DNA of 64,000 nucleotides, from the NCBI RefSeq assembly GCF_003482105.1, contig NZ_QULM01000002.1, positions 186,001 to 250,000 of the forward strand, written 5' to 3'. The position numbers and the translations under genes are program-made. The first letter of the stretch is position 1. Each line of letters starts with the position of its first letter. Positions 7,781 to 43,479 of the stretch are shown one piece after another. Source of the DNA: Coprococcus sp. OM04-5BH. Lineage in GTDB: Bacteria > Bacillota > Clostridia > Lachnospirales > Lachnospiraceae. Under the pieces are notes generated by a model that searched no databases, had not been told where the DNA came from, and was given only the letters and a program-made list of their open reading frames with translations.

Positions 7781-9460
7781 TTACTCAACTGATACTATAT
7801 AATAGTATATAGGCTGGCCTCCGAAATAAAGTGATACATCACAGTCAGGAAACTCTTCCGATACTCTCTCTGACAATTTCTCTGCATCCTCTTTCGTTAC
7901 ATCACTGCCGTAATATATACTGATTATCTCCTTGTCCTCGTCATAGCACTCTGAAATAACATCAAATGCCACATCCGCAATATCACTTCCCACTGCAAGA
8001 AGTCCCTTGTCGGAAAGACCCATTATGTCTCCCTGCTTTATAGTCTTGCCGTCTATGCTTGTATCCCTTACTGCATATGTCACCTGTCCGCTCTTGACAT
8101 TCTCGATAGCCTCAAGCATATTCGTCTTATTGTCCTCAAGACTGATGGTCGAATCATAAGCTATCATCGCACTTATGCCCTGTGGAGCATTGGCGGTAGC
8201 CATTACTATGACATTCTTGTCCTCACAGAGATCGGCAGCCTGGTTGGCAGCAAGCACAACATTCTTATTATTAGGAAAGATAAATACATTCTTTGCATTA
8301 ACCTTGTCAATGGCATTGAGCATATCCTCAGTACTTGGGTTCATGGTCTGACCACCTTCTATAACATAATCAACCCCAAGCTCCACAAAGAGATCCTTGA
8401 GACCATCACCCATTGATACGGCTATGAAACCACATTCCTTGGAAGGCTTCTCCTGCTTCTTACGTCTAATCTCTTCCTGTTTCTCTGCTTCTTCCTTGTC
8501 CGCTGAGGTCATAAGTCTCTCATTATGCTCAAGCCTCATATTATCGACCTTCATATTAGAGAGGTATCCGTAGGTAAGACCCTTCTCAAATGCCTGACCA
8601 GGATGATTTGTATGAACATGTATCTTAACGATACCATCAAAGGCAACACATACTATTGAATCACCAATAGACTCAAGGTAAGCTTTAAGCTTATCCTCCT
8701 CATCCTCGTCAAAGGGCTTCTCAAGATTTATTATAAACTCTGTACAATATCCGAATTTAATATCTGCTGTGGATATATCGTTGCTTGACGCTCCTGTCAC
8801 AGTCTTCTTAACCACCGGTGCAGTCATGGTCTCATCCACAACAACCTTTCCTGTAAGGGCATCAACGGCTCCCTGAAGGACAACCATAAGTCCCTTTCCA
8901 CCGGAATCCACAACACCCGCCTCCTTAAGTACAGGAAGCATCTCGGGAGTCCTGTCAAGGACCTCATTACCATGGGCAATAACATCTTCACAGAACTGCT
9001 CAAGGGACACATCAGCATCGGCGCACTCTCTTGCCTTGGTTGCAACGCCCTTGGCAACGGTAAGGATAGTTCCCTCCTTAGGCTTCATAACCGCCTTGTA
9101 TGCAGTCTCAACTGCCTTCTGGAATGCATCAGCTATCACATGGACATCCAGTTCCTTCTCGTCAGCTATCTTCTTGCTGAAGCCACGAAGCAGCTGGGAT
9201 AATATAACACCCGAATTACCTCTGGCACCTCTTAATGATCCTGTAGACATGGCTCTTGCTATGCCAGGCATATCAGAATCTGACACTGCCTCAACCTCTC
9301 TCTTGGCTGAAAGTATGGTAAGGGTCATATTAGTTCCGGTATCTCCGTCAGGAACCGGAAAGACATTCAGTTCATTAATGTATTCCTTATTCTTATCAAG
9401 ATTTAATGCACCGGCAACAAATGCTTTCTTAAGCATTGCTGCGTTAATCGTATTATTCAC
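7781..9460 (-). CDS. fakA: Fatty acid kinase FakA / DAK2 domain protein (YloV-like)
   Basis: A GTG start at 9460 lies 10 bases after GGAGG. The 559-residue protein starts with a DAK2 (dihydroxyacetone-kinase L) domain whose phosphate-binding signature NVFPVPDGDTGTNM is at about 28-41, followed by RGARGNSGVILSQLLRG. A middle DAK1-like region and a DegV-like C-terminal part complete the FakA layout. FakA phosphorylates fatty acids bound by FakB (DegV) proteins, feeding exogenous fatty acids into phospholipids at the membrane. It follows an Asp23 gene with a 17-base gap and precedes recG, the canonical yloU-yloV-recG order. Activity is inferred from family. Confidence 0.9.
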   Translation of the reverse strand: MNNTINAAMLKKAFVAGALNLDKNKEYINELNVFPVPDGDTGTNMTLTILSAKREVEAVSDSDMPGIARAMSTGSLRGARGNSGVILSQLLRGFSKKIADEKELDVHVIADAFQKAVETAYKAVMKPKEGTILTVAKGVATKARECADADVSLEQFCEDVIAHGNEVLDRTPEMLPVLKEAGVVDSGGKGLMVVLQGAVDALTGKVVVDETMTAPVVKKTVTGASSNDISTADIKFGYCTEFIINLEKPFDEDEEDKLKAYLESIGDSIVCVAFDGIVKIHVHTNHPGQAFEKGLTYGYLSNMKVDNMRLEHNERLMTSADKEEAEKQEEIRRKKQEKPSKECGFIAVSMGDGLKDLFVELGVDYVIEGGQTMNPSTEDMLNAIDKVNAKNVFIFPNNKNVVLAANQAADLCEDKNVIVMATANAPQGISAMIAYDSTISLEDNKTNMLEAIENVKSGQVTYAVRDTSIDGKTIKQGDIMGLSDKGLLAVGSDIADVAFDVISECYDEDKEIISIYYGSDVTKEDAEKLSERVSEEFPDCDVSLYFGGQPIYYYIVSVE

Positions 9461-9477
9461 TGCTAACTATCCTCCAA

Positions 9478-9837
9478 CTAATCCAATACCTTAACGTCTT
9501 CCACATATACATTTATCTGGCTGACCTTAAGAGAAGTAAAATCTTCCACCTTATACTTAACAGACTGCATAAGGTTATCTGTAACTGCCTTGATACTGAC
9601 ACCATAAGCAACAACTATATGAAAATCTATAACTATATCACCGTTCTCATCAAACTTAACGCTGACACCCTTACTGATATTGTCTCTCTTCAACTGTTTT
9701 ACGAGACCATCCTTAAGACTGACTATTCCCATTCCGACTATTCCGAAACAATCAAGAGCAGTAAGCCCTGCCACCTGCGCTACCACATTCTCATCAAGAC
9801 TTACGGTCCCGATATCACCATCAATATATTCTTTCAT
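9478..9837 (-). CDS. Asp23/Gls24 family envelope stress protein (YloU-like)
   Basis: The ATG at 9837 is preceded by TTGGAGGC at the right spacing, giving 119 residues; an upstream in-frame GTG at 9900 has a poorer setting. The protein begins MKEYIDGDIGTVSLDENVVA and has the alternating beta/alpha pattern of Asp23 (VAYGVSIKAVTDNLMQSV, VSQINVYVEDV). Asp23 proteins lie near the membrane and are linked to envelope homeostasis; the YloU type is always paired with the DAK2 kinase. The gene sits at the end of an unusually long structured 5' leader (see 9838-10076). Confidence 0.9.
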   Translation of the reverse strand: MKEYIDGDIGTVSLDENVVAQVAGLTALDCFGIVGMGIVSLKDGLVKQLKRDNISKGVSVKFDENGDIVIDFHIVVAYGVSIKAVTDNLMQSVKYKVEDFTSLKVSQINVYVEDVKVLD

Positions 9838-10076
9838 AAAAGCCTCCAATTTCAAAACATCGAGCAGCAACCATTGAAATTGTCTGTTTGGTATCGTCAC
9901 CTCATATTATGTGTAACGCCACCTCGTTTACACTGGGTAGCATTTAGTCAGCGCCATTCTAAATGTGTCTTCGACACTTGGTGCTTCCTCCGACAAGGGT
10001 TGCTGCAACGTATCGATGTCATAGTCATCATTACATAACTGTAAATGCATCGTAACAGACGCATTAAAACGCATTA
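9838..10076 (-). ncRNA. Candidate structured 5' leader of the asp23-fakA genes, class unknown
   Basis: Between the predicted start point near 10076 and the asp23 ATG lie about 240 transcribed bases without a normal gene. On the minus strand, successive hairpins can be drawn: GTGTC-GAA-GACAC (9965-9977), CATTTAG/CTAAATG (arms 9941-9947 and 9959-9965), and GTGTAA(A)CG/CGTTACAC (9911-9933) whose six-base loop AGGTGG is Shine-Dalgarno-like. A GGAGG at about 9985-9989 precedes an in-frame GTG that opens a nine-codon ORF. No known riboswitch consensus was recognised. Function is not known; the evidence is only length and pairing. Confidence 0.4.
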
Positions 10077-10082
10077 TGCTTT

Positions 10083-10091
10083 ATTATATCA
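10083..10091 (-). promoter_or_regulatory. Extended -10 promoter of the asp23-fakA-recG genes
   Basis: The minus strand reads TGATATAAT, a TGn extension plus a consensus TATAAT (10083-10088). There is no good -35 box at 16-18 bases, which fits an extended -10 promoter. It diverges from the rpmB promoter at 10133-10161. Confidence 0.5.
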
Positions 10092-10132
10092 CACCATAGG
10101 AAAAAATAAATAAAAACTTTTTAAATTTATGC

Positions 10133-10161
10133 TTGCATATGCTGACATTATCTGTTAGAAT
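10133..10161 (+). promoter_or_regulatory. Sigma-A promoter of rpmB
   Basis: TTGCAT (10133-10138), 17-base spacer, TAGAAT (10156-10161). The start point would be near 10168, giving a leader of about 40 bases that ends in a full AAGGAGGTG ribosome binding site at 10194-10202. Confidence 0.65.
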
Positions 10162-10207
10162 GAGTTCTGTTGTGAACAAACGGATAACTAATTAAGGAGG
10201 TGCTATC

Positions 10208-10393
10208 ATGGCAAAATGCTCAGTTTGTGATAAGGCTGCTCATTTTGGAATTAAGGTGAGCCATTCTCATAGAAGATCAAACAGAATGTGGAAGTCAAAC
10301 GTAAAGTCAGTTAAGGCGATTGTTGACGGAACACCAAAGAGAATTTACGTTTGCACAAAGTGCTTAAGAGCAGGCAAGGTAGAACGTGCTTAA
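10208..10393 (+). CDS. rpmB: 50S ribosomal protein L28
   Basis: The 61-residue protein has the L28 hallmarks: CSVCDKAAHFG at the start with the zinc-ribbon Cys pair, KVSHSHRRSNRMWKSNVKSV, and a second Cys pair in VCTKCLRAGKV. It is a structural component of the large subunit. The four cysteines indicate the zinc-binding (C+) form. It is a single-gene transcription unit with its own promoter and a strong terminator at 10413-10440, and it diverges from asp23-fakA, as in Bacillus. Confidence 0.98.
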   Translation: MAKCSVCDKAAHFGIKVSHSHRRSNRMWKSNVKSVKAIVDGTPKRIYVCTKCLRAGKVERA

Positions 10394-10412
10394 TTCTGAA
10401 TAAAGACGAGAA

Positions 10413-10440
10413 AAAAAAGACTGATGACTCAGTCTTTTTT
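10413..10440. terminator. Bidirectional intrinsic terminator between rpmB and the 45-residue ORF
   Basis: A perfect 12-bp stem, AAAAAAGACTGA paired with TCAGTCTTTTTT around a TGAC loop, with A and T runs on the two sides. It can end transcription from rpmB on the plus strand and from the convergent small gene (10501-10638) on the minus strand. Confidence 0.9.
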
Positions 10441-10500
10441 TATTGTAATGACGTCTGGGACATCGTTACGCTGCAGTTATCCCATAAGTACTATACGCTT

Positions 10501-10638
10501 CTATCTTCTGCAGAAGAATATATATGATAAAAGTAATAAGATGGTTATTACCAGAAATTCTATAAAGCCTTCAACAAGATAGGCTATCAACATCCCTACT
10601 GCAACACAGAACAAAGCGAAACCGATTATTTTTGACAA
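10501..10638 (-). CDS. Small membrane protein, 45 residues, function unknown
   Basis: Reading the minus strand from a TTG at 10638 gives a 45-residue protein ending in a TAG at 10501-10503. It begins MSKIIGFALFCVAVGMLIAY and ends SYIFFCRR, forming two hydrophobic segments (about 4-20 and 26-42) separated by a short LVEGF turn, with a basic C-terminus. A GGTGG lies 8 bases before the TTG. It lies directly behind ytfJ, and its ribosome binding site is inside the 3' arm of a hairpin (10643-10690). The VGMLI-containing pattern resembles short hypothetical membrane proteins of Lachnospiraceae, from memory only. Function cannot be assigned. Confidence 0.6.
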   Translation of the reverse strand: MSKIIGFALFCVAVGMLIAYLVEGFIEFLVITILLLLSYIFFCRR

Positions 10639-10642
10639 AATA

Positions 10643-10690
10643 AAAACCACCGCCCTATACAGTATATTAAAAGTATATGACAGTGGTTTT
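10643..10690 (-). terminator. Terminator- or attenuator-like hairpin between ytfJ and the small membrane protein
   Basis: AAAACCAC and GTGGTTTT (10643-10650 and 10683-10690) pair, with inner TATAC/GTATA pairing. On the minus strand the closing arm is followed by TTTATTTT. The same arm holds the GGTGG ribosome binding site of the downstream small ORF, so folding would both terminate and mask it. Confidence 0.45.
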
Positions 10691-10705
10691 ATTTAAGTGC
10701 GGTTA

Positions 10706-11110
10706 TTATTCTTCTTTTTTGGAAACATCCTTGACAACCTGTTCCACTTCGATTTCTTCCTCACTCTTGTTCTTCTTAAAAAGTGCACAGATCTTATCTA
10801 CGATCTCAGGAGCCATATCCATAGCCTTTGTAACAGCATCCTGATTCTTGATATTTACAAGTCTGGTCTTGCCCTCAGATATAACGAGAACTGCTGAAGG
10901 TGACAGCTTAGCTCCGATACCGCCTGCAGCATTGCTTCCCTTCTCCTTGTTAAATGCTCCCGCTGCCATTCCGAAATTAACATCAAGGAGCGGTATGATT
11001 ATTGTATCTCCAACCTTAATAGGATCTCCGACAACAGACTTTGATGAAACAAATCCATCCATTCCACTGAAAAGTGTTTTCATTGTGTTCTCAATATTAA
11101 TATTTGCCAT
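10706..11110 (-). CDS. ytfJ: GerW family sporulation protein YtfJ
   Basis: The 134-residue protein matches the YtfJ/GerW family in length and sequence: an N-terminal TMKTLFSGMDGFVSSKSVVG, the conserved VGDTIIIPLLDVNFGMAAG, and GGIGAKLSPSAVLVI. The family is made in the forespore and is needed for normal spore germination in Bacillus; in Clostridia its role is less studied. A glycine/serine loop and a charged Glu-rich tail (EEEIEVEQ) are typical. It overlaps nothing but follows the DUF2953 gene after 2 bases, a standard pair in Clostridia, and is preceded by GGGAGGAAA. Confidence 0.93.
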   Translation of the reverse strand: MANINIENTMKTLFSGMDGFVSSKSVVGDPIKVGDTIIIPLLDVNFGMAAGAFNKEKGSNAAGGIGAKLSPSAVLVISEGKTRLVNIKNQDAVTKAMDMAPEIVDKICALFKKNKSEEEIEVEQVVKDVSKKEE

Positions 11111-11112
11111 TA

Positions 11113-12306
11113 CTATTTCCTCCCTGAAATACGTTTAAAGTCACTTAAAGCAGCTCTGCAGTTCTTATTAAACATAACCCTCACTGCTACAACAAGTATT
11201 TTTCCTAATCTTATACGTCCCTTGGCATACAGATTTCCTTCAAGAATCTTCTTTGAGAAATCCGGTGTCACATCTATCTTGTCATAATACAACGGATACG
11301 CCACACTCATCAGTCCCAGGTGTTCACCGGTGGTTGCCGGATCTCCTGTTCCGTACACCAGCTCACCTGTAAGCTTCTTAGGTCCTATGGTCTTAAGAAG
11401 GCTTATGAGATTGAACTTCACAACCGTAAGTGCCAGTCTGGTATTTTCCTTTCTTATAAATCCCATATAAGAATCCTTCATGTCCTTAAGGGATCTGAAC
11501 TTCTCAATACCGTTTGCTATTATCCTGTATATCTTACCTGCTACCTTATCTATGAAACCACCTATGAGCTTCTTTATGCCGCATGCAATATCATAGAGAT
11601 CAGCGTCATTCTTTATAAATCTGATAGCGTCTGCCTTAAGGCTGTCATCTTCATTGGATGTTTTTTCTCTGCCAGTGATATTCTCTTCACCGTAAGCAGT
11701 TTCCTTGTCAGAAACATTATCTGTATCTGAATTTTCTCCCTTGCCGAAAATATTCTCATGAAGAATTTTTTCCTTATCGGAAGAAGCTTCACTGCTCCAA
11801 GCCACATCCTGCTTCTTCACATCAGAAGCTGCCTCAGGCTTATCTGCTTTTACCTCTGCTTCGCCGGTTTCAGGATTCTGAACAGACATGCCATTCTTTC
11901 TTGCAAGCTTTGCCTGCTTTCTTATTTCCTTTATTTCCTGTTTTTCTTTTTTCTTTGTTTCCTTAAGATCCTTCTTGGCCTGTTTCTTAGCTTCCTTTTC
12001 CTGCTTACGCTTCTCAGCCTCACGAGCCTCCTCCGGAGTCATCTTATGTCTGTTGTCCATAAGCGTTCCGCCGAAGGTCTTAAGCCTGTAATACAAGCCA
12101 TCTTCATTGTAATCCGCTTTCAGGCACAGAACAAATCCCATATATGACACCTTAAGCTTCGCCACAAACTTCTCATGCTTGTCTGCGTATACCTTATATC
12201 TGAAAGGCACCAGTAGAAGAAGTAACAGAAGAACTATAGCCAGTCCAAGAAGAATAAGCACTGTAAATAACAGGATCTTCAATATCAGCAATGTAATATG
12301 TAACAT
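11113..12306 (-). CDS. DUF2953 domain-containing membrane protein
   Basis: The 397-residue protein starts with a membrane segment (about 3-34). It then has a basic KxxK/E-rich, probably coiled-coil region with an acidic insert (about 90-220), and a C-terminal DUF2953 part around SLLKTIGPKKLTGELVYGTG, DKIDVTPDFSKKILEGNLYA and GRIRLGKILVVAVRVM. DUF2953 genes sit beside ytfJ across sporulating Clostridia, so a sporulation link is likely but unproven. The start ATG is preceded by GAGGGG in the end of the upstream gene. The central linker is longer than I would expect for the family. Confidence 0.85.
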   Translation of the reverse strand: MLHITLLILKILLFTVLILLGLAIVLLLLLLLVPFRYKVYADKHEKFVAKLKVSYMGFVLCLKADYNEDGLYYRLKTFGGTLMDNRHKMTPEEAREAEKRKQEKEAKKQAKKDLKETKKKEKQEIKEIRKQAKLARKNGMSVQNPETGEAEVKADKPEAASDVKKQDVAWSSEASSDKEKILHENIFGKGENSDTDNVSDKETAYGEENITGREKTSNEDDSLKADAIRFIKNDADLYDIACGIKKLIGGFIDKVAGKIYRIIANGIEKFRSLKDMKDSYMGFIRKENTRLALTVVKFNLISLLKTIGPKKLTGELVYGTGDPATTGEHLGLMSVAYPLYYDKIDVTPDFSKKILEGNLYAKGRIRLGKILVVAVRVMFNKNCRAALSDFKRISGRK

Positions 12307-12309
12307 TAT

Positions 12310-12675
12310 CTACCCCTCTGTTTCGTCTTTTCTGTCTGTCTTGCCCAGTTTCAGCTTTTCATAGTTCCTAAAATAAGATACACAATCAAAACCCCCTGTA
12401 GCAGTATACACATCATCTATTATAGCTCTCACCAGTGAGTATGCCTGGATCTTCGAGCTTGCGATCCCGACGATATGTATATCATTGCTTCTCTGCTTAT
12501 AATGGGGCTGGGTAAGCTCCGGCTGGTGATACACCTCAAGAAGTCCTTCTCCCGATAACGGCAGGGTGATGAGCACCACTCCCGGACACAGCTTAAACTT
12601 CTGTATATTTTTAATTGTCTTGATCACATTGATACCCGGCATCCTGCCGACGTACAAATGTTTATCTATAACCAT
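12310..12675 (-). CDS. Conserved-looking hypothetical protein, 121 residues
   Basis: I do not recognise the family. The ATG follows AGGAGATGCGTA, and the stop lies three bases before the DUF2953 gene, so it belongs to the same operon. The protein is soluble, with a beta-rich start (MVIDKHLYVGRMPGINV), a central HQPELTQPHYKQRSNDIHIV stretch, and a predicted helix near IQAYSLVRAIIDDVYTATGG. No catalytic signature or metal site is evident. Position suggests a role linked to the sporulation or envelope genes next to it, but this is only inference. Confidence 0.7.
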   Translation of the reverse strand: MVIDKHLYVGRMPGINVIKTIKNIQKFKLCPGVVLITLPLSGEGLLEVYHQPELTQPHYKQRSNDIHIVGIASSKIQAYSLVRAIIDDVYTATGGFDCVSYFRNYEKLKLGKTDRKDETEG

Positions 12676-12702
12676 TACGCATCTCCTACTAACGCACCGT
12701 CA

Positions 12703-14130
12703 TTAATCTTCCATTATTCCCCTTATCACTGAATAACAGGCAATCTGCTCACCCCTGTTGCTGCAATGGGCAAGAGAATGTTCAATATATTCCTTTATCT
12801 CCTCAGTGGTGTTAAAGAAAACCGGTATATTAGACAGTGCCTTTGCCATGATAGCCCTGTTGACTATCATCTTGTTCTCTTCAAAAAGACCTGCAAATCC
12901 CTCACAGAGCTTGTCCTTAAATGCCACGATAGTCTCTGTGTCGGCAGGCATTGTATTGTATCCTGATACATTATCTATATCAGCAAATAAACTTCCTGAC
13001 AGAAGCTTATTGATTGCTTCAAGATCCTTAAAATCAGAACCAAGTCCGCACTGCTCTATCTGAACACTGTTCCCTGTTACAATATCATAAAAAGAAGCCT
13101 CAGGCAACATCTTATGCTCTCCCGCCTGCTCCTGAAGGCCAACAAGCCCTGACAAAAGCTCATATGTATCATCATCCATGGCAGTGTCCTTCTCAACTGA
13201 GGCTGCTATAGAAGCAATGACATCAATAGCTTTTTTGTAATCATCGCCAATAGAATCCCTTGCGTCATTTACAAGGAGCATTGTATACGTATCATTTATA
13301 AGCTCAATGAGCATCATGTAATCAGACACCGTATCATTGATATAGGTGGCAGCACTGTCAAGAACTGCGGCAAGTCTTCTGTAATCCTCAAGGGACAAGT
13401 CTGTGTAATCATATTCCTTAAGCTCTGTGTATGCCTTAAAAAGCTCAGGGTAGAACTCCTCAAAGCCCTCCGGCTTATTTATAAGCACCGTATCACATAC
13501 CATATCACAGAATTCATTAAGACTTCCTATCTCCGATCCATTATATATGGAAAGAGTCTGTCCAATTATATCGTAGAACTTATTCTTGGTCATTCTTAAA
13601 GGTAACTGTCCGATCAGTGACTGTATCTTGGAATTAACAGCCATCTTATCCTTATCCGCAAATATAAAATTATATATCTCCTGAGAGAAAGCGTCCACGT
13701 CATATTCAGAAAACATCTTCTCCACCTCTTCGGTGACATTCTCCTCAAATCCAAATTCCTTTCTGTTAAGGATATATTCATACAGCTCAAAAGCATCCGT
13801 ATAAGCTGTAAGCACCTTCATTCTGGCAGTGACTTTGTTACGCATATCGCTCACAAGAAGCATATCCTTAGGATCAACCTCGCCGCACTTTCCAGCCACA
13901 TAGGTATTCACCAGCTTGTTGATACCCATTATAAAGCTTACGATCTCCGGTTCGATCTTTTCCTTCTTGTCCTCAAGCATTTCCTTGACAGTAAAGAAGT
14001 TAAGAGCAAACTTGGACACCGCATATTCATAGTCTGCACTCTTCATGCAGGAAACATACTTTGGCAGATTTTCCTCTAAATTCTTCTTTCTTCCTATATC
14101 TGTAATTATCTTTTTCTCTTCGTTGTACAT
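12703..14130 (-). CDS. Hypothetical acidic helical protein, 475 residues
   Basis: I do not recognise this protein. The ATG at 14130 is chosen because GAGGGACGAG precedes it. The product is soluble, acidic and almost wholly helical, without membrane segments, signal peptide or cysteine clusters. Segments such as EENLPKYVSCMKSADYEYAV, LRMTKNKFYDIIGQTLSIYN and EYIEHSLAHCSNRGEQIACY may form a helical repeat scaffold. It lies 17 bases after the rhomboid-like gene and upstream of the 121-residue protein and DUF2953-ytfJ, in one apparent operon. A scaffold or regulatory function is conceivable; none is demonstrated. Confidence 0.75.
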   Translation of the reverse strand: MYNEEKKIITDIGRKKNLEENLPKYVSCMKSADYEYAVSKFALNFFTVKEMLEDKKEKIEPEIVSFIMGINKLVNTYVAGKCGEVDPKDMLLVSDMRNKVTARMKVLTAYTDAFELYEYILNRKEFGFEENVTEEVEKMFSEYDVDAFSQEIYNFIFADKDKMAVNSKIQSLIGQLPLRMTKNKFYDIIGQTLSIYNGSEIGSLNEFCDMVCDTVLINKPEGFEEFYPELFKAYTELKEYDYTDLSLEDYRRLAAVLDSAATYINDTVSDYMMLIELINDTYTMLLVNDARDSIGDDYKKAIDVIASIAASVEKDTAMDDDTYELLSGLVGLQEQAGEHKMLPEASFYDIVTGNSVQIEQCGLGSDFKDLEAINKLLSGSLFADIDNVSGYNTMPADTETIVAFKDKLCEGFAGLFEENKMIVNRAIMAKALSNIPVFFNTTEEIKEYIEHSLAHCSNRGEQIACYSVIRGIMED

Positions 14131-20656: not shown

Positions 20657-21273
20657 TATCTGTTGTCCTCCATTTCTATGAAATTCTTCAGTATCTTTAA
20701 TCCAACCTCTGAACTCTTCTCAGGATGGAACTGGCATGCAAACACATTTCCGTGCTCTACTGCTGCATGGATATGTACCGAATACTCAGTGGAAGCAGCC
20801 ACATCCTCTTCATTTGCAGCCTTAAGATAATAGGAATGAACAAAATATACATATGGATTATCCGGAAGTCCTTTAAATATCCTCTTTTCTCTGTTTATAT
20901 CCAGAGTGTTCCATCCGATCTGCGGGATCTTGAGACCCTCCTTATCAGGTATACGGAGTATCTCGCCATCAAGTATTCCAAGCCCCGTAGCCCCCGGGCT
21001 CTCTTCACTGGATTTAAACAAAAGCTGAAGTCCCAGGCATATGCCTAAGAATGGCTTATCAGCGTCCACCACATCATATATAACCTTATCAAGACCATAT
21101 TCCCTGATCTTGTCCATGGCATCCTTGAAACAGCCAACCCCCGGAAGGATAACCTTATCACTGGCAAGGATAACATCTCTGTCTCTGGTGATCACAGCCT
21201 CTTCCCCAAGGTACTTTATTGCCTTTTCAACGCTTTTAATATTACCGGCATCATAATCGATTATTGATATCAT
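20656..21273 (-). CDS. hisH: Imidazole glycerol phosphate synthase glutaminase subunit HisH
   Basis: The ATG at 21273 is preferred to an in-frame TTG at 21291 because the TTG merges with the AAAGGA site. The 205-residue class-I glutamine amidotransferase begins [19 protein letters not shown], has the nucleophile in [10 protein letters not shown] (about Cys79), and the His-Glu pair in [12 protein letters not shown]. It feeds ammonia to HisF through the barrel. The unit has its own promoter at 21337-21365. Confidence 0.97.
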
Positions 21274-21336
21274 AGTCTCAAATCCTTTCAAATTAAGCCT
21301 TTTCGGCTATGGATTTTTTAATACATTCCGCATTGC

Positions 21337-21365
21337 ATTATAGCATACTTGGGATACGCTGTCTA
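21337..21365 (-). promoter_or_regulatory. Predicted sigma-A promoter of hisH-hisF
   Basis: On the minus strand TAGACA (21360-21365) is followed after 17 bases by TATAAT (21337-21342). A short AGCC-GAAAA-GGCT hairpin can form in the 60-base leader. No T-box or his leader peptide was recognised. Confidence 0.6.
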
Positions 21366-21726
21366 TTTCCTTAATTTCAGCAAACCTTGATCTTATTATG
21401 TTCTATTCTCCATATGTTGGGATTTCAAACCAACATATATCACCACACTCTTTATTGATTTAATATTCTTTTTTCCAATAATCTTGATTTATATATAATA
21501 AGTTCCACCAAATAATCATAATAATCAGCCCATCTTTTGTTTTCACCCTCTCACAAGAAAAACTATCATATCTTTAGAGAAAATCAATCAAAATCGCACC
21601 AATTTCGCTTCAAAACACATCATAGGTAAACTTAATCAGCTACGCACTTACAAAGTCAATTTGCCCTCAAAATCACTTATTTTCACAAAGAATAATAGCA
21701 TATACCCGGGGTGCTGTAAAACTATA
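21366..21726. other. AT-rich intergenic region without a recognised gene
   Basis: About 360 bases between the hisH promoter and the end of the zinc-ribbon island. I see no ORF with a ribosome binding site. One inverted repeat is present: ATATGTTGG and CCAACATAT (21412-21420 and 21430-21438, nine-base loop), which has no T run and could be a protein-binding site. No terminator for the island is evident. Confidence 0.5.
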
Positions 21727-22485
21727 CTACAAACCAGCTTGATCAACCCCATATACTGCCTGTTCATAGCTAAATCCTTCATGCTGCAACTGGTGGAGCA
21801 GTCTATCTTTTCCCATATCTGGAGAAGAATTTAAATAAGACTTTGCTTTTTTATACGCTTGATCGTTCCAATCTGCATTACAATTATCTACTCCATATTG
21901 AGCTTCATCTTCTGTGAACCCTTCATATTCAAGTTGATGTTGTAATCCACTATATGAGAATGCAGAGCTATTCAAATATGACTTAGCCTTTTTCAATGCC
22001 TGTTCTTTCCAATTAGCACCACAATTATCCGCACCATACGTTGCTTCAGATGTAGAAAATCCTTCATATTCTAATTGATGTATCAATCCGGTATAGGAAA
22101 ATGCAGAACTATTAAGATATGATTCCGCTTTTGCTTTTGCTCCAGCATTACCTGTCTTTGGCACATAGTCATAATTTGAATCATATGAGTATGCTAAGGA
22201 ATGATACACACAATATTTGCTATTTTCTGTTCTCTTTTCTGTACAACCATCAAATGCACATCTGGTAGAAAAGTGATATATGCAGAATATTAGAATACTC
22301 GCTACAGCCACACCGATAATAGCTTTTACATTGATTTTATTTGCCGGTGCAGCAGTATTTGAAACAAATTCTTTCTGCTGTTCTGCTTCATAATATGCTT
22401 TTATATTATAGCCACATCCAGGGCAAGACTTAGCTGTACTTGATACATTTTCTCTACCACATTCAGGACACTTTACTAATGCCAT
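21727..22485 (-). CDS. Zinc-ribbon membrane protein with three Ltp repeats
   Basis: The 252-residue protein has an N-terminal zinc ribbon (CPEC at 6-9, CPGC at 21-24), a membrane segment (about 53-72), and a second Cys/His cluster just beyond it (CAFDGC, CVYH). Three repeats of the Ltp type follow (about 117-156, 164-203, 212-250), each with AKSYLNSS, HQLEYEGF and a YGVDN-like end. Ltp domains are known from the phage TP-J34 lipoprotein that blocks DNA injection by superinfecting phage. Here the domain is tethered by a membrane helix instead of a lipid. It is last in a three-gene operon and overlaps the previous gene by 23 bases. A defence role is inference only. Confidence 0.85.
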   Translation of the reverse strand: MALVKCPECGRENVSSTAKSCPGCGYNIKAYYEAEQQKEFVSNTAAPANKINVKAIIGVAVASILIFCIYHFSTRCAFDGCTEKRTENSKYCVYHSLAYSYDSNYDYVPKTGNAGAKAKAESYLNSSAFSYTGLIHQLEYEGFSTSEATYGADNCGANWKEQALKKAKSYLNSSAFSYSGLQHQLEYEGFTEDEAQYGVDNCNADWNDQAYKKAKSYLNSSPDMGKDRLLHQLQHEGFSYEQAVYGVDQAGL

Positions 22486-22951
22486 TCGCTTTCTCCACTT
22501 TGATAAACTTGCAACCTATAACTCCACAGGCAATGCCACCTAAACATAATACAATAGCTTGTATGCGATATTCCCATATTTTCTTATTATCGTCTTTTGC
22601 CATATCCTCATATTCAGATGCAATATATCTATATGTACCACTAAACCATGATCCAGAATTTCTTGCATTCGCACTATTTTCTGCATATCCTTCCATACAC
22701 TCTTCATAGTGCTGTTTATAGAAAGAATATGTATCATTGTTAATTCTAGTAAAGGCAACAATCAGCATGATACACGCTACCACGCAAAGGGTAATTCCAA
22801 TATATTTTTTATTCTTATATACCGGCACTGTCGCTGTTGTATTTGTGTTATCTTCTACTGCTTCAGTTTCAGATTGAACAACTTCATATCCACAACTTGG
22901 ACATACATTTACATTATCAGCCACCTCAGTTCCACATTCAGGACATTTCAT
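22463..22951 (-). CDS. Zinc-ribbon protein with two membrane segments
   Basis: The 162-residue protein starts with a zinc ribbon (MKCPECGTEVADNVNVCPSC), an acidic linker, and two hydrophobic segments (about 50-67 and 128-150). Between them is a polar loop rich in Tyr, Glu and Asn (YKQHYEECMEGYAENSANAR). I do not recognise a wider family. It lies 23 bases after the first gene of the operon and overlaps the Ltp gene by 23 bases. Zinc-ribbon plus membrane-helix proteins of this sort are often taxon-specific and poorly understood. Confidence 0.75.
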   Translation of the reverse strand: MKCPECGTEVADNVNVCPSCGYEVVQSETEAVEDNTNTTATVPVYKNKKYIGITLCVVACIMLIVAFTRINNDTYSFYKQHYEECMEGYAENSANARNSGSWFSGTYRYIASEYEDMAKDDNKKIWEYRIQAIVLCLGGIACGVIGCKFIKVEKANGISKVS

Positions 22952-22974
22952 AAAATCCCCCCATCTATCATTAT

Positions 22975-23880
22975 CTATTCGATAATCTTGATCGTTGAAT
23001 AAGCATCATTTTTAAGGACTGTTTTTAAGCGTGGCAAATCAACATCTCCAACTTTATCATTGCCATCTACATACAGATTTATCAACTCACAAATTAACAG
23101 TTTATACATATCGTCTTCATCGTCAGAATCATAATCATCTTCATCTAATGAATTACATGTTCCCAAAATCTTATATACCTTATCGTCTGTATTATAATAT
23201 CCTAACACATATCCTGTAGTATTGCCACCAAATCCATTTTGCGCACCATAATGTATAATACAAGCTGGGTGTTTGTCAGATACTTCTTCTTCCGTATTAT
23301 CTGATTGTTCTGTATTTTCTGAATCTTTTTCTCCACCCATTGAAGCATAAAATGTTATATCATATGGTTGAAAAGAATCTGGATTTTTAAGATAACTCTT
23401 CAAATCGTTTATAGTTGAATATGCATAGGATTCGTATTTCAACTGTTCCCGAATTGTATCCACATCCTTATATCCACCAATAGAATCTAACATCTTATCA
23501 GCTTCTTCATATTTACCTTTTTCCAAAAGTGTCATAGCCTCATTATATGTATTCTTAGGCTTAACCACTTTAACATTATAAATAATCAAACCTACAACAA
23601 TTACAACAACTGCTGCAACAACAGGAATTATAATCTTTTTCAGATTTTTCTTTGGTTTTTCTGCTATTGTTGTTTGTACTGGTGTCTCCACAGTAGTTTC
23701 TTCCTCAAATGGACATCCACAATGTACACATTCTGTAGCATCAATCGAATTTTCCTTTCCACAGTCGCTACATACTTTAGTAGCCGGCTTCTCTTCAATC
23801 AATATCTTTCCACAATGTACACATTTTTTTGCTTTGTCTGAAATCTCTTGTCCACATTCTGGACACTTAATCATAGCCAT
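22975..23880 (-). CDS. Double zinc-ribbon, single-pass membrane protein with TPR-like segment
   Basis: The 301-residue protein has two zinc ribbons (CPEC/CVHC at 6-23 and CSDC/CVHC at 37-54), a Thr/Glu-rich linker, a membrane segment (about 84-101) and a short TPR-like helix pair (NTYNEAMTLLEKGKYEEADK onward). The C-terminal outer domain contains LKSYLKNPDSFQPYDI and an acidic DEDDYDSDDEDD run. It is the first gene of the operon, and its promoter at 23938-23966 contains a perfect palindrome. The domain order resembles zinc-ribbon/extracellular sensor proteins of gut Firmicutes. Function is unknown. Confidence 0.78.
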   Translation of the reverse strand: MAMIKCPECGQEISDKAKKCVHCGKILIEEKPATKVCSDCGKENSIDATECVHCGCPFEEETTVETPVQTTIAEKPKKNLKKIIIPVVAAVVVIVVGLIIYNVKVVKPKNTYNEAMTLLEKGKYEEADKMLDSIGGYKDVDTIREQLKYESYAYSTINDLKSYLKNPDSFQPYDITFYASMGGEKDSENTEQSDNTEEEVSDKHPACIIHYGAQNGFGGNTTGYVLGYYNTDDKVYKILGTCNSLDEDDYDSDDEDDMYKLLICELINLYVDGNDKVGDVDLPRLKTVLKNDAYSTIKIIE

Positions 23881-23937
23881 ATTTTGTACCTCTCTTCTTT
23901 GGGTTTTTATTTTATAGTTCTAAAACTACACGATATT

Positions 23938-23966
23938 ATTATATTCGTTATAACGAAGATATTCAA
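23938..23966 (-). promoter_or_regulatory. Promoter of the zinc-ribbon operon with an embedded operator palindrome
   Basis: On the minus strand TTGAAT (23961-23966) and TATAAT (23938-23943) are 17 bases apart. The spacer contains the perfect 14-bp palindrome TTCGTTATAACGAA (23944-23957), directly abutting the -10 box. A dimeric repressor bound there would block polymerase. The divergently encoded Cro/C1-type protein is the obvious candidate. Confidence 0.65.
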
Positions 23967-24022
23967 GTAAAAGTATACACAGTACACTTATTTCATAAAC
24001 TATTAGAAATGGAGGTACTGTG

Positions 24023-24241
24023 ATGATCGATTATTCCCCATTCTGGAATACTCTTGAAAAGTCAAGCGAGAACTGGTATACACTTACAAACAAATATCAT
24101 ATGTCACACAGCACTCTCCACAGATTAAAACATAATATGGATGTATCAACCAAGACTCTAAACGATTTGTGTAGAATTCTTAAATGTGACATCTGCGATA
24201 TAGTTAGATACATTCCATCCGATACAGATCAGGTCTTGTAA
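24023..24241 (+). CDS. Small Cro/C1-type helix-turn-helix regulator
   Basis: The ATG at 24023 lies seven bases after GGAGG; a GTG just before it is too close. The 72-residue protein is almost all HTH: WYTLTNKYHMSHSTLHRLKH is followed by MDVSTKTLNDLCRILKCDIC and a DIVRYIP end, a layout of the HTH_26/YozG type. It is encoded divergently from the zinc-ribbon operon, 140 bases away, with a palindrome in that operon's promoter. Repression of the operon, and perhaps of itself, is likely but inferred. No integrase or other phage gene lies nearby. Confidence 0.88.
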   Translation: MIDYSPFWNTLEKSSENWYTLTNKYHMSHSTLHRLKHNMDVSTKTLNDLCRILKCDICDIVRYIPSDTDQVL

Positions 24242-24251
24242 TGTCAAATAA

Positions 24252-24306
24252 AAAAGACATTAAATTGATTAAAGTCTTTTTCGACTTGTCTAATTCAATG
24301 TCTTTT
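24252..24306. terminator. Hairpin terminator after the HTH gene
   Basis: AAAAGACATT (from 24252) pairs with AATGTCTTTT (to 24306), continuing imperfectly through AATT and AAGTC/GACTT. An A run and T run flank it, so it may serve both the regulator gene and the convergent histidine kinase gene. Confidence 0.65.
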
Positions 24307-24331
24307 ATAAAAATATCTTCTTTATTCTTAA

Positions 24332-43449: not shown

Positions 43450-43479
43450 AAAAGGTCGGATAATATTATCCGACCTTTT
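43450..43479 (-). terminator. Terminator after tRNA-Glu
   Basis: A perfect palindromic stem, arms 43450-43464 and 43465-43479 (AAAAGGTCGGATAAT and its complement), two bases after the tRNA end on the minus strand, followed by a T run. Confidence 0.85.

Follow-up and report, generated by a model that had tools for sequence, protein, structure and literature searches.

We analysed a 64-kb stretch of DNA (the window) and favour, on balance, the reading that three of its genes (g1, g2 and g3) and a divergent regulator gene form an accessory chromosomal module that resembles superinfection exclusion, would be controlled by a repressor and would block the entry of phage DNA. Judged by its domain matches and its place among relatives, g3 is best read as the active part of this exclusion-like block, and it has the appearance of a gene for phage self-protection that the bacterium has taken over. 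The preliminary description had suggested a membrane surveillance or anti-phage module. The anti-phage half of that suggestion gains because g3 branches within the Ltp proteins found on viral contigs, because some phage genes of zinc-ribbon, transmembrane (TM) and Ltp build lie in tail modules with the tape-measure gene, because g1 has phage relatives, and because one of the sister loci (L003) has an integrase and PADLOC-listed genes as neighbours; the surveillance half gives way to a block of DNA entry as the closer parallel.

An accessory island between hisH and a histidine-kinase gene

The minus strand carries g1 (22975..23880; 301 aa), which encodes a double zinc ribbon, one TM helix and a predicted outer domain of about 190 aa; g2 (22463..22951; 162 aa), with a zinc ribbon, two TM helices and a predicted outer helical loop of about 60 aa; and g3 (21727..22485; 252 aa), with a zinc ribbon, a TM helix and three Ltp repeats (PF07553). 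g3 overlaps g2 by 23 nt, and a gap of 23 nt separates g2 from g1. Divergent from g1, the plus-strand HTH gene (24020..24241) encodes a small Cro/C1-type regulator that matches HTH_26 (PF13443) at 2.8e-9, with 37.5 bits against a curated cut-off of 22. All four frames are open. Coordinates, ribbons and helices confirm the preliminary description of three near-touching zinc-ribbon membrane genes, and the domain match likewise bears out its Cro/C1-like regulator divergent from the operon. A hairpin at 24252..24306 (-16.9 kcal/mol, z -3.0), between the HTH gene and the histidine-kinase gene, is a probable terminator. Elsewhere in the window, a 30-bp perfect palindrome at 43450-43479 lies between called minus-strand ORFs and is perhaps a terminator.

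The g1-g3 island sits between hisH and the histidine-kinase gene, which in the window are about 3.06 kb apart, and comparison with relatives shows that it is accessory at this site. The histidine kinase was used as a query over 299 genomes of one family, 281 of which had a match; ten loci were taken, and hisH and the kinase gene are both visible in seven of them. None of these seven relatives carries g1-g3 between the two genes. Four (L050, L051, L052 and L055) have a gap of 363-522 bp with one small conserved gene, which in L050 is DUF6465, while in L054, L057 and L058 the spot is filled by a gene of 258-289 aa, for which no Pfam family was found in the one case checked (L057). Because the last three loci hold a different gene there, the junction is variable. 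The island is also AT-richer than its neighbours, as had been described, with a GC content of 33.4% (21300-24331) against 41.7% for the 64-kb window, and the six lowest-GC 2.5-kb windows of the 64 kb all begin at 21251-22501. In a motif scan, the tyrosine-recombinase motif H-x-LRH-[ST] was absent from the window, in agreement with the earlier remark that no integrase is present. Membership of g3 in a prophage lysogeny module was considered and rejected, given this absence and its location between hisH and the histidine-kinase gene.

Kinship of g3 with phage-type Ltp proteins

Domain matches and phylogeny show g3 to be akin to phage-type Ltp proteins. The Ltp family (PF07553) is matched with 138.3 bits against a curated cut-off of 23.2, in three stretches at 8.8e-41, so the triple repeat reported for this gene stands. 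g3 also matches the family phrog_4980, annotated 'superinfection exclusion', at 3.4e-50, and over residues 109-201 it matches a solved Ltp chain (PDB 4eqq, which we take to be the TP-J34 Ltp protein) at 1.6e-8. The three repeats have net charges of -3, -3 and -2. In a tree, g3 and its counterparts from L001, L003, L004, L005 and L102 form one six-member clade (support 100/96) that is nested inside the Ltp proteins of viral contigs. A search with PADLOC gave weak, partial matches for g1-g3, the best for g3 being to RTasSLATT with an E value of 0.0007 over 27 residues. The N-terminus of g3 is a zinc ribbon (Zn_ribbon_3, 8e-6; 25.6 bits, slightly short of the cut-off of 27), followed by a TM helix at residues 51-69 by hydropathy. 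With this start and helix, and with no lipobox in g3, its identification as an Ltp lipoprotein with a lipobox signal peptide was rejected.

Among 50,697 phage records, 139 contain Ltp matches, and some of these are annotated as superinfection exclusion. An alignment scan of viral contigs gave 159 Ltp relatives, and 80 of these were taken further; a zinc ribbon is present in 14 of the 80. A same-strand ORF of at least 150 aa begins within 1.3 kb downstream of 65 of the 80 genes, and the 64 such ORFs that were scanned, leaving out that of L157, a tape-measure gene, include 30 Phage_integrase, 10 Resolvase and 2 Dit_N matches. According to the TP-J34 study (PMC3952083), ltp adjoins int, the same order as in these viral loci. 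By motif only, an integrase lies within 1.2 kb of 21 of the 80 Ltp genes, compared with 37 of 559 control ORFs taken from those loci (Fisher p 8e-7, near-copies included); with labels from a custom three-round HMM added, an integrase neighbour is found for 47 of the 80, a figure that has no matching control. For the 14 zinc-ribbon Ltp genes, the motif found no integrase downstream within 1.2 kb (0/14), and with HMM labels seven have one on one side or the other.

Other Ltp genes lie near the tape-measure gene. A PHROG-confirmed tape-measure ORF is found within about 105 bp of the Ltp gene in four of the 80 (L103, L105, L140 and L157; in L105 on the other strand), and in genome contigs the distances are 50 bp (L010), 113 bp (L011) and 2.5 kb (L008). 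In L060, a confirmed tape-measure ORF ends 1.2 kb upstream of the Ltp gene, and the intervening 306-aa ORF is labelled tape-measure by the custom HMM only. All eight proteins tested match tape-measure families. Two of these Ltp proteins (L011 and L060) have the zinc-ribbon-TM-Ltp build of g3. Where an Ltp gene adjoins its own phage's tape-measure gene (L103, L105, L140, L157, L010 and L011), the arrangement could reflect coevolution or self-exclusion. In PMC3952083, the tape-measure protein is described as the target of Ltp repeats, with acidic residues being important.

A conserved operator and its regulator

Upstream of g1, a minus-strand promoter (23938..23966) consists of TTGAAT from 23966, a 17-bp spacer and TATAAT ending at 23938, and the spacer holds the operator core TTCG-N6-CGAA, a perfect 14-bp palindrome at 23944..23957. 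The preliminary description had proposed an operator-controlled promoter whose spacer is wholly palindromic; the promoter is upheld, and the palindrome is limited to these 14 bp within the spacer. Taken as a sequence alone, the promoter carries little weight as evidence, because the 64 kb contain eight perfect palindromes of at least 14 bp and because promoter-like matches are not in excess (22 vs 17.6, sd 3.9). It becomes convincing because it is conserved in relatives.

Matches to the HTH protein at E<=1e-12 were found in 37 of 150 genomes, and 30 matches became loci; in all, 34 loci were compared (the window, L005, the viral L063 and L064, and L065-L094). A type A operator (TTCG-N6-C[GA]AAG) is present at 11 of them and a type B operator (GACTATAGTC-like) at 12, with neither type at the other 11. 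All ten proteins with the recognition helix HRL[KR]HN have a type A operator; among 15 with an LRKN-type helix, 12 have type B and three neither; and one of nine with other helices has type A, with no crossing of operator and helix types among the 34 loci. A consensus promoter points away from the HTH gene at 10 of the 11 type A and all 12 type B loci, and at 22 of the 34 loci the operator lies inside such a promoter. Upstream regions subjected to single-base shuffles contained type A in 0.04% and type B in 0.4% of cases. The strict pattern TTCGN6CGAAGATATTCAA occurs seven times in 150 genomes, once per genome and every time 49-57 bp upstream of the HTH match (7/7), and 0 times in the reversed control. 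In this comparison, the operator is shown to be conserved and to covary with the recognition helix. The operator footprint, the covariation and the constant position of the strict pattern beside the HTH gene indicate that the HTH protein is very likely a dedicated local regulator, and the placement of the operator inside the promoter argues for repression.

The HTH protein is not specific to g1-g3; it also faces varied, often surface-related genes. A zinc ribbon is encoded in the divergent ORF at five of 23 operator-bearing loci (the window, L005, L063, L066 and L069; L063 is on the same contig as L061, and the L069 ORF has 50 aa). Elsewhere the cargo includes choline-binding-repeat proteins (L065 and L078), an acyltransferase (L068), a BspA-type LRR protein (L074) and CpsB/CapC (L082). 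Four of ten divergent genes scanned have no Pfam match or one below cut-off only (L064, L067, L070 and L076), and several cargo genes are short. Such variety counts against a special tie of the HTH protein to phage defence. In the upstream regions of L065-L084, a compact HTH_26 gene with an operator in a divergent promoter recurs with varied cargo. By eye, lipoprotein-like cargo at L064:1892-2428 and L069:434-1189 has a motif like that of the g1 outer domain (LK-x-P-x-S, N-x-FGG/A style) and is perhaps a recurring outer module; at L066:2095-2661, a DUF3990 protein (PDC-M13/M10 match) adjoins the HTH-zinc-ribbon pair.

The choline-binding, BspA-LRR, acyltransferase and capsule cargo would also suit a surface or envelope-stress operon, in which TcaA-like zinc-ribbon-TM proteins act as sensors and the Ltp repeats recognise the cell wall or host ligands instead of phage proteins. 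Ltp domains occur in surface proteins, pneumococcal CbpL being an example, and the N-termini of g2, g1 and g3 are all weakly TcaA-like (30.1, 24.1 and 22.8 bits, respectively). These scores are, however, far under the 550-bit cut-off and the match spans the ribbon and TM helix only, while g3 itself is nested among phage-type Ltp proteins; we regard a surface operon as rather unlikely.

Partner genes and sister loci

g2 has one zinc ribbon (4.5e-8) and, by hydropathy, TM helices at residues 50-68 and 132-150, with both ends predicted to lie on the inner side. Its homologues form 30 protein clusters, and the gene was found in two of 195 genomes scanned, both already among the known loci; the protein search relies on shared five-residue words, by which distant g2 relatives would be missed. 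In phages, g2 had no match past the ribbon and first helix. Ltp repeats come directly after g2 in four independent DNA loci, namely the window, L001/L002 (one case, because they are 99.95% identical), L003 and L005. In L005, a fusion protein joins g2 to a third TM helix and the Ltp repeats, the second ribbon being lost. Linkage of g2 and g3, with one fusion, is thus shown.

g1 has two zinc ribbons (Zn_Ribbon_1, 2.3e-10; DZR, 1e-7), a TM helix at residues 83-101 by hydropathy and an outer domain that in the predicted structure combines helices with a four-stranded sheet. It has 477 homologues, of which 120 are listed, and many relatives can be aligned to it from end to end; since g2 is rare, g1 must often occur without it. 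In three g1-g2 homologue pairs, the longest contigs are of identical size (2260, 38537 and 410533 bases), which suggests linkage. Two viral contigs (L182 and L183) carry relatives that match g1 over its whole length at 41-42% identity, each located about 1.3 kb past an SPP1-type portal gene. Single scattering of homologues, named in the preliminary description as a sign against a module, is seen in part: g2 and g3 are together wherever g2 is seen, g1 and the HTH gene are widespread without them, and L004 has g3 without g2.

The mobile and defence-related neighbours of the sister loci are suggestive. The L003 genes are flanked by tsf (EF-Ts) and an integrase, which is followed by PDC-M12A (3.1e-89) and PDC-M12B (3.1e-30), an AAA ATPase with its partner; the stretch from the integrase on (8419-13108) further encodes an LmuA/Avs1a-like protein (9e-65, 5e-50) with a metallo-beta-lactamase fold. 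Its HTH_26 gene, divergent from g2, is a different one (55.7 bits), and no match to the window HTH was found in L003. In L004, a recombinase fragment precedes g3, which is followed by YukD, ThiF and UBC-FHA genes. L005 has the order HTH, g1, g2-g3; its HTH gene matches over residues 2-39 only, and by eye its neighbours look metabolic, with none of the mobile or defence neighbours of L003 and L004. L001/L002 have a different gene upstream of g2-g3 and are on short contigs, and L102 is a g3-clade Ltp gene on a contig of a viral collection. The row at L004:6939-12791 comprises an HTH gene, an IrrE-type peptidase, a zinc-ribbon gene, a YukD-like ubiquitin fold, a ThiF E1 and a UBC-FHA protein, and ends by eye with a protease-like gene, as in a bacterial ubiquitin-like set.

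Sister genes beside an integrase (L003) or a recombinase (L004) or on a viral-collection contig (L102), together with an AT-rich island at a variable spot, would also fit a leftover of a phage or mobile element that is kept by drift or serves no one but the element with which it arrived. We think this improbable, as all four frames are open, the operator and promoter are intact and g1 aligns full length with many relatives. Least probable is a multi-part membrane surveillance system in which infection is detected outside by g1 and g2 and relayed via zinc ribbons inside, for although g1-g3 share a ribbon-helix-outer-domain build and g2-g3 are fused in L005, the island contains no recognised effector gene, and Pfam and PADLOC yielded no convincing match to a defence family.

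Proposed mechanism and its significance

In the exclusion mechanism that we infer, the three Ltp repeats of g3, each with a net negative charge, would be displayed on the outer face of the membrane, with the TM helix as anchor in the role that a lipid has in classical Ltp. When a siphophage injects, the repeats would catch its tape-measure protein at this place and so stop the passage of DNA. g2 may serve as the membrane partner of g3, forming a complex with it, and g1 may contribute an accessory outer domain. The HTH protein would bind the operator in the g1 promoter and hold the operon, and probably also itself, at a set level until a signal lifts this hold. Against the exclusion reading we counted the weak PADLOC matches, the missing g3 lipobox and the missing integrase motif in the window; the metabolic-looking setting and cut-short HTH match of L005; the lower motif-only integrase counts and the end of the g2 phage match at the first helix; and the unrelated genes faced by the HTH cassette and the Ltp domains of surface proteins.

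Superinfection exclusion is known mostly from prophages, and a regulated multi-gene chromosomal form in Lachnospiraceae would, if true, show phage self-protection turning into bacterial defence and offer a testable way of blocking DNA entry for which the class of target is known. The predicted operator and its co-changing recognition helix would make the targets of the HTH cassette predictable in other genomes. More tentatively, we propose a non-prophage exclusion complex of zinc-ribbon-TM-anchored Ltp with g2 and g1, switched by the HTH protein, whose cassette would be reused with interchangeable surface cargo in Lachnospiraceae; the same kind of switch would then set both cell-surface states (capsule, cell-wall binding, acyltransferase) and exclusion states.

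Comparison with known systems

The HTH protein is like VanU (NF000090) and other HTH_26 regulators in being small, Cro/C1-type and of similar length; identification as VanU was rejected, with 28.5 bits against a cut-off of 150 and no van gene recognised in the island. g1-g3 resemble TcaA (NF053815) in starting with a zinc ribbon, after which come a TM helix and an outer part, and assignment to that family was likewise rejected (at most 30.1 bits, the match ending after the TM helix). The nearest comparison is with TP-J34 Ltp (PMC3952083): g3 likewise has tandem Ltp repeats that are acidic and predicted to lie outside the membrane, and its viral relatives often adjoin an integrase gene. Unlike TP-J34 Ltp, g3 has three repeats rather than two, carries a TM helix and an N-terminal zinc ribbon instead of being anchored by a lipid, and is chromosomal, with two partner genes and a regulator of its own. 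Compared with known exclusion systems, what is unusual in the proposed module is its anchor, its partners and its switch.
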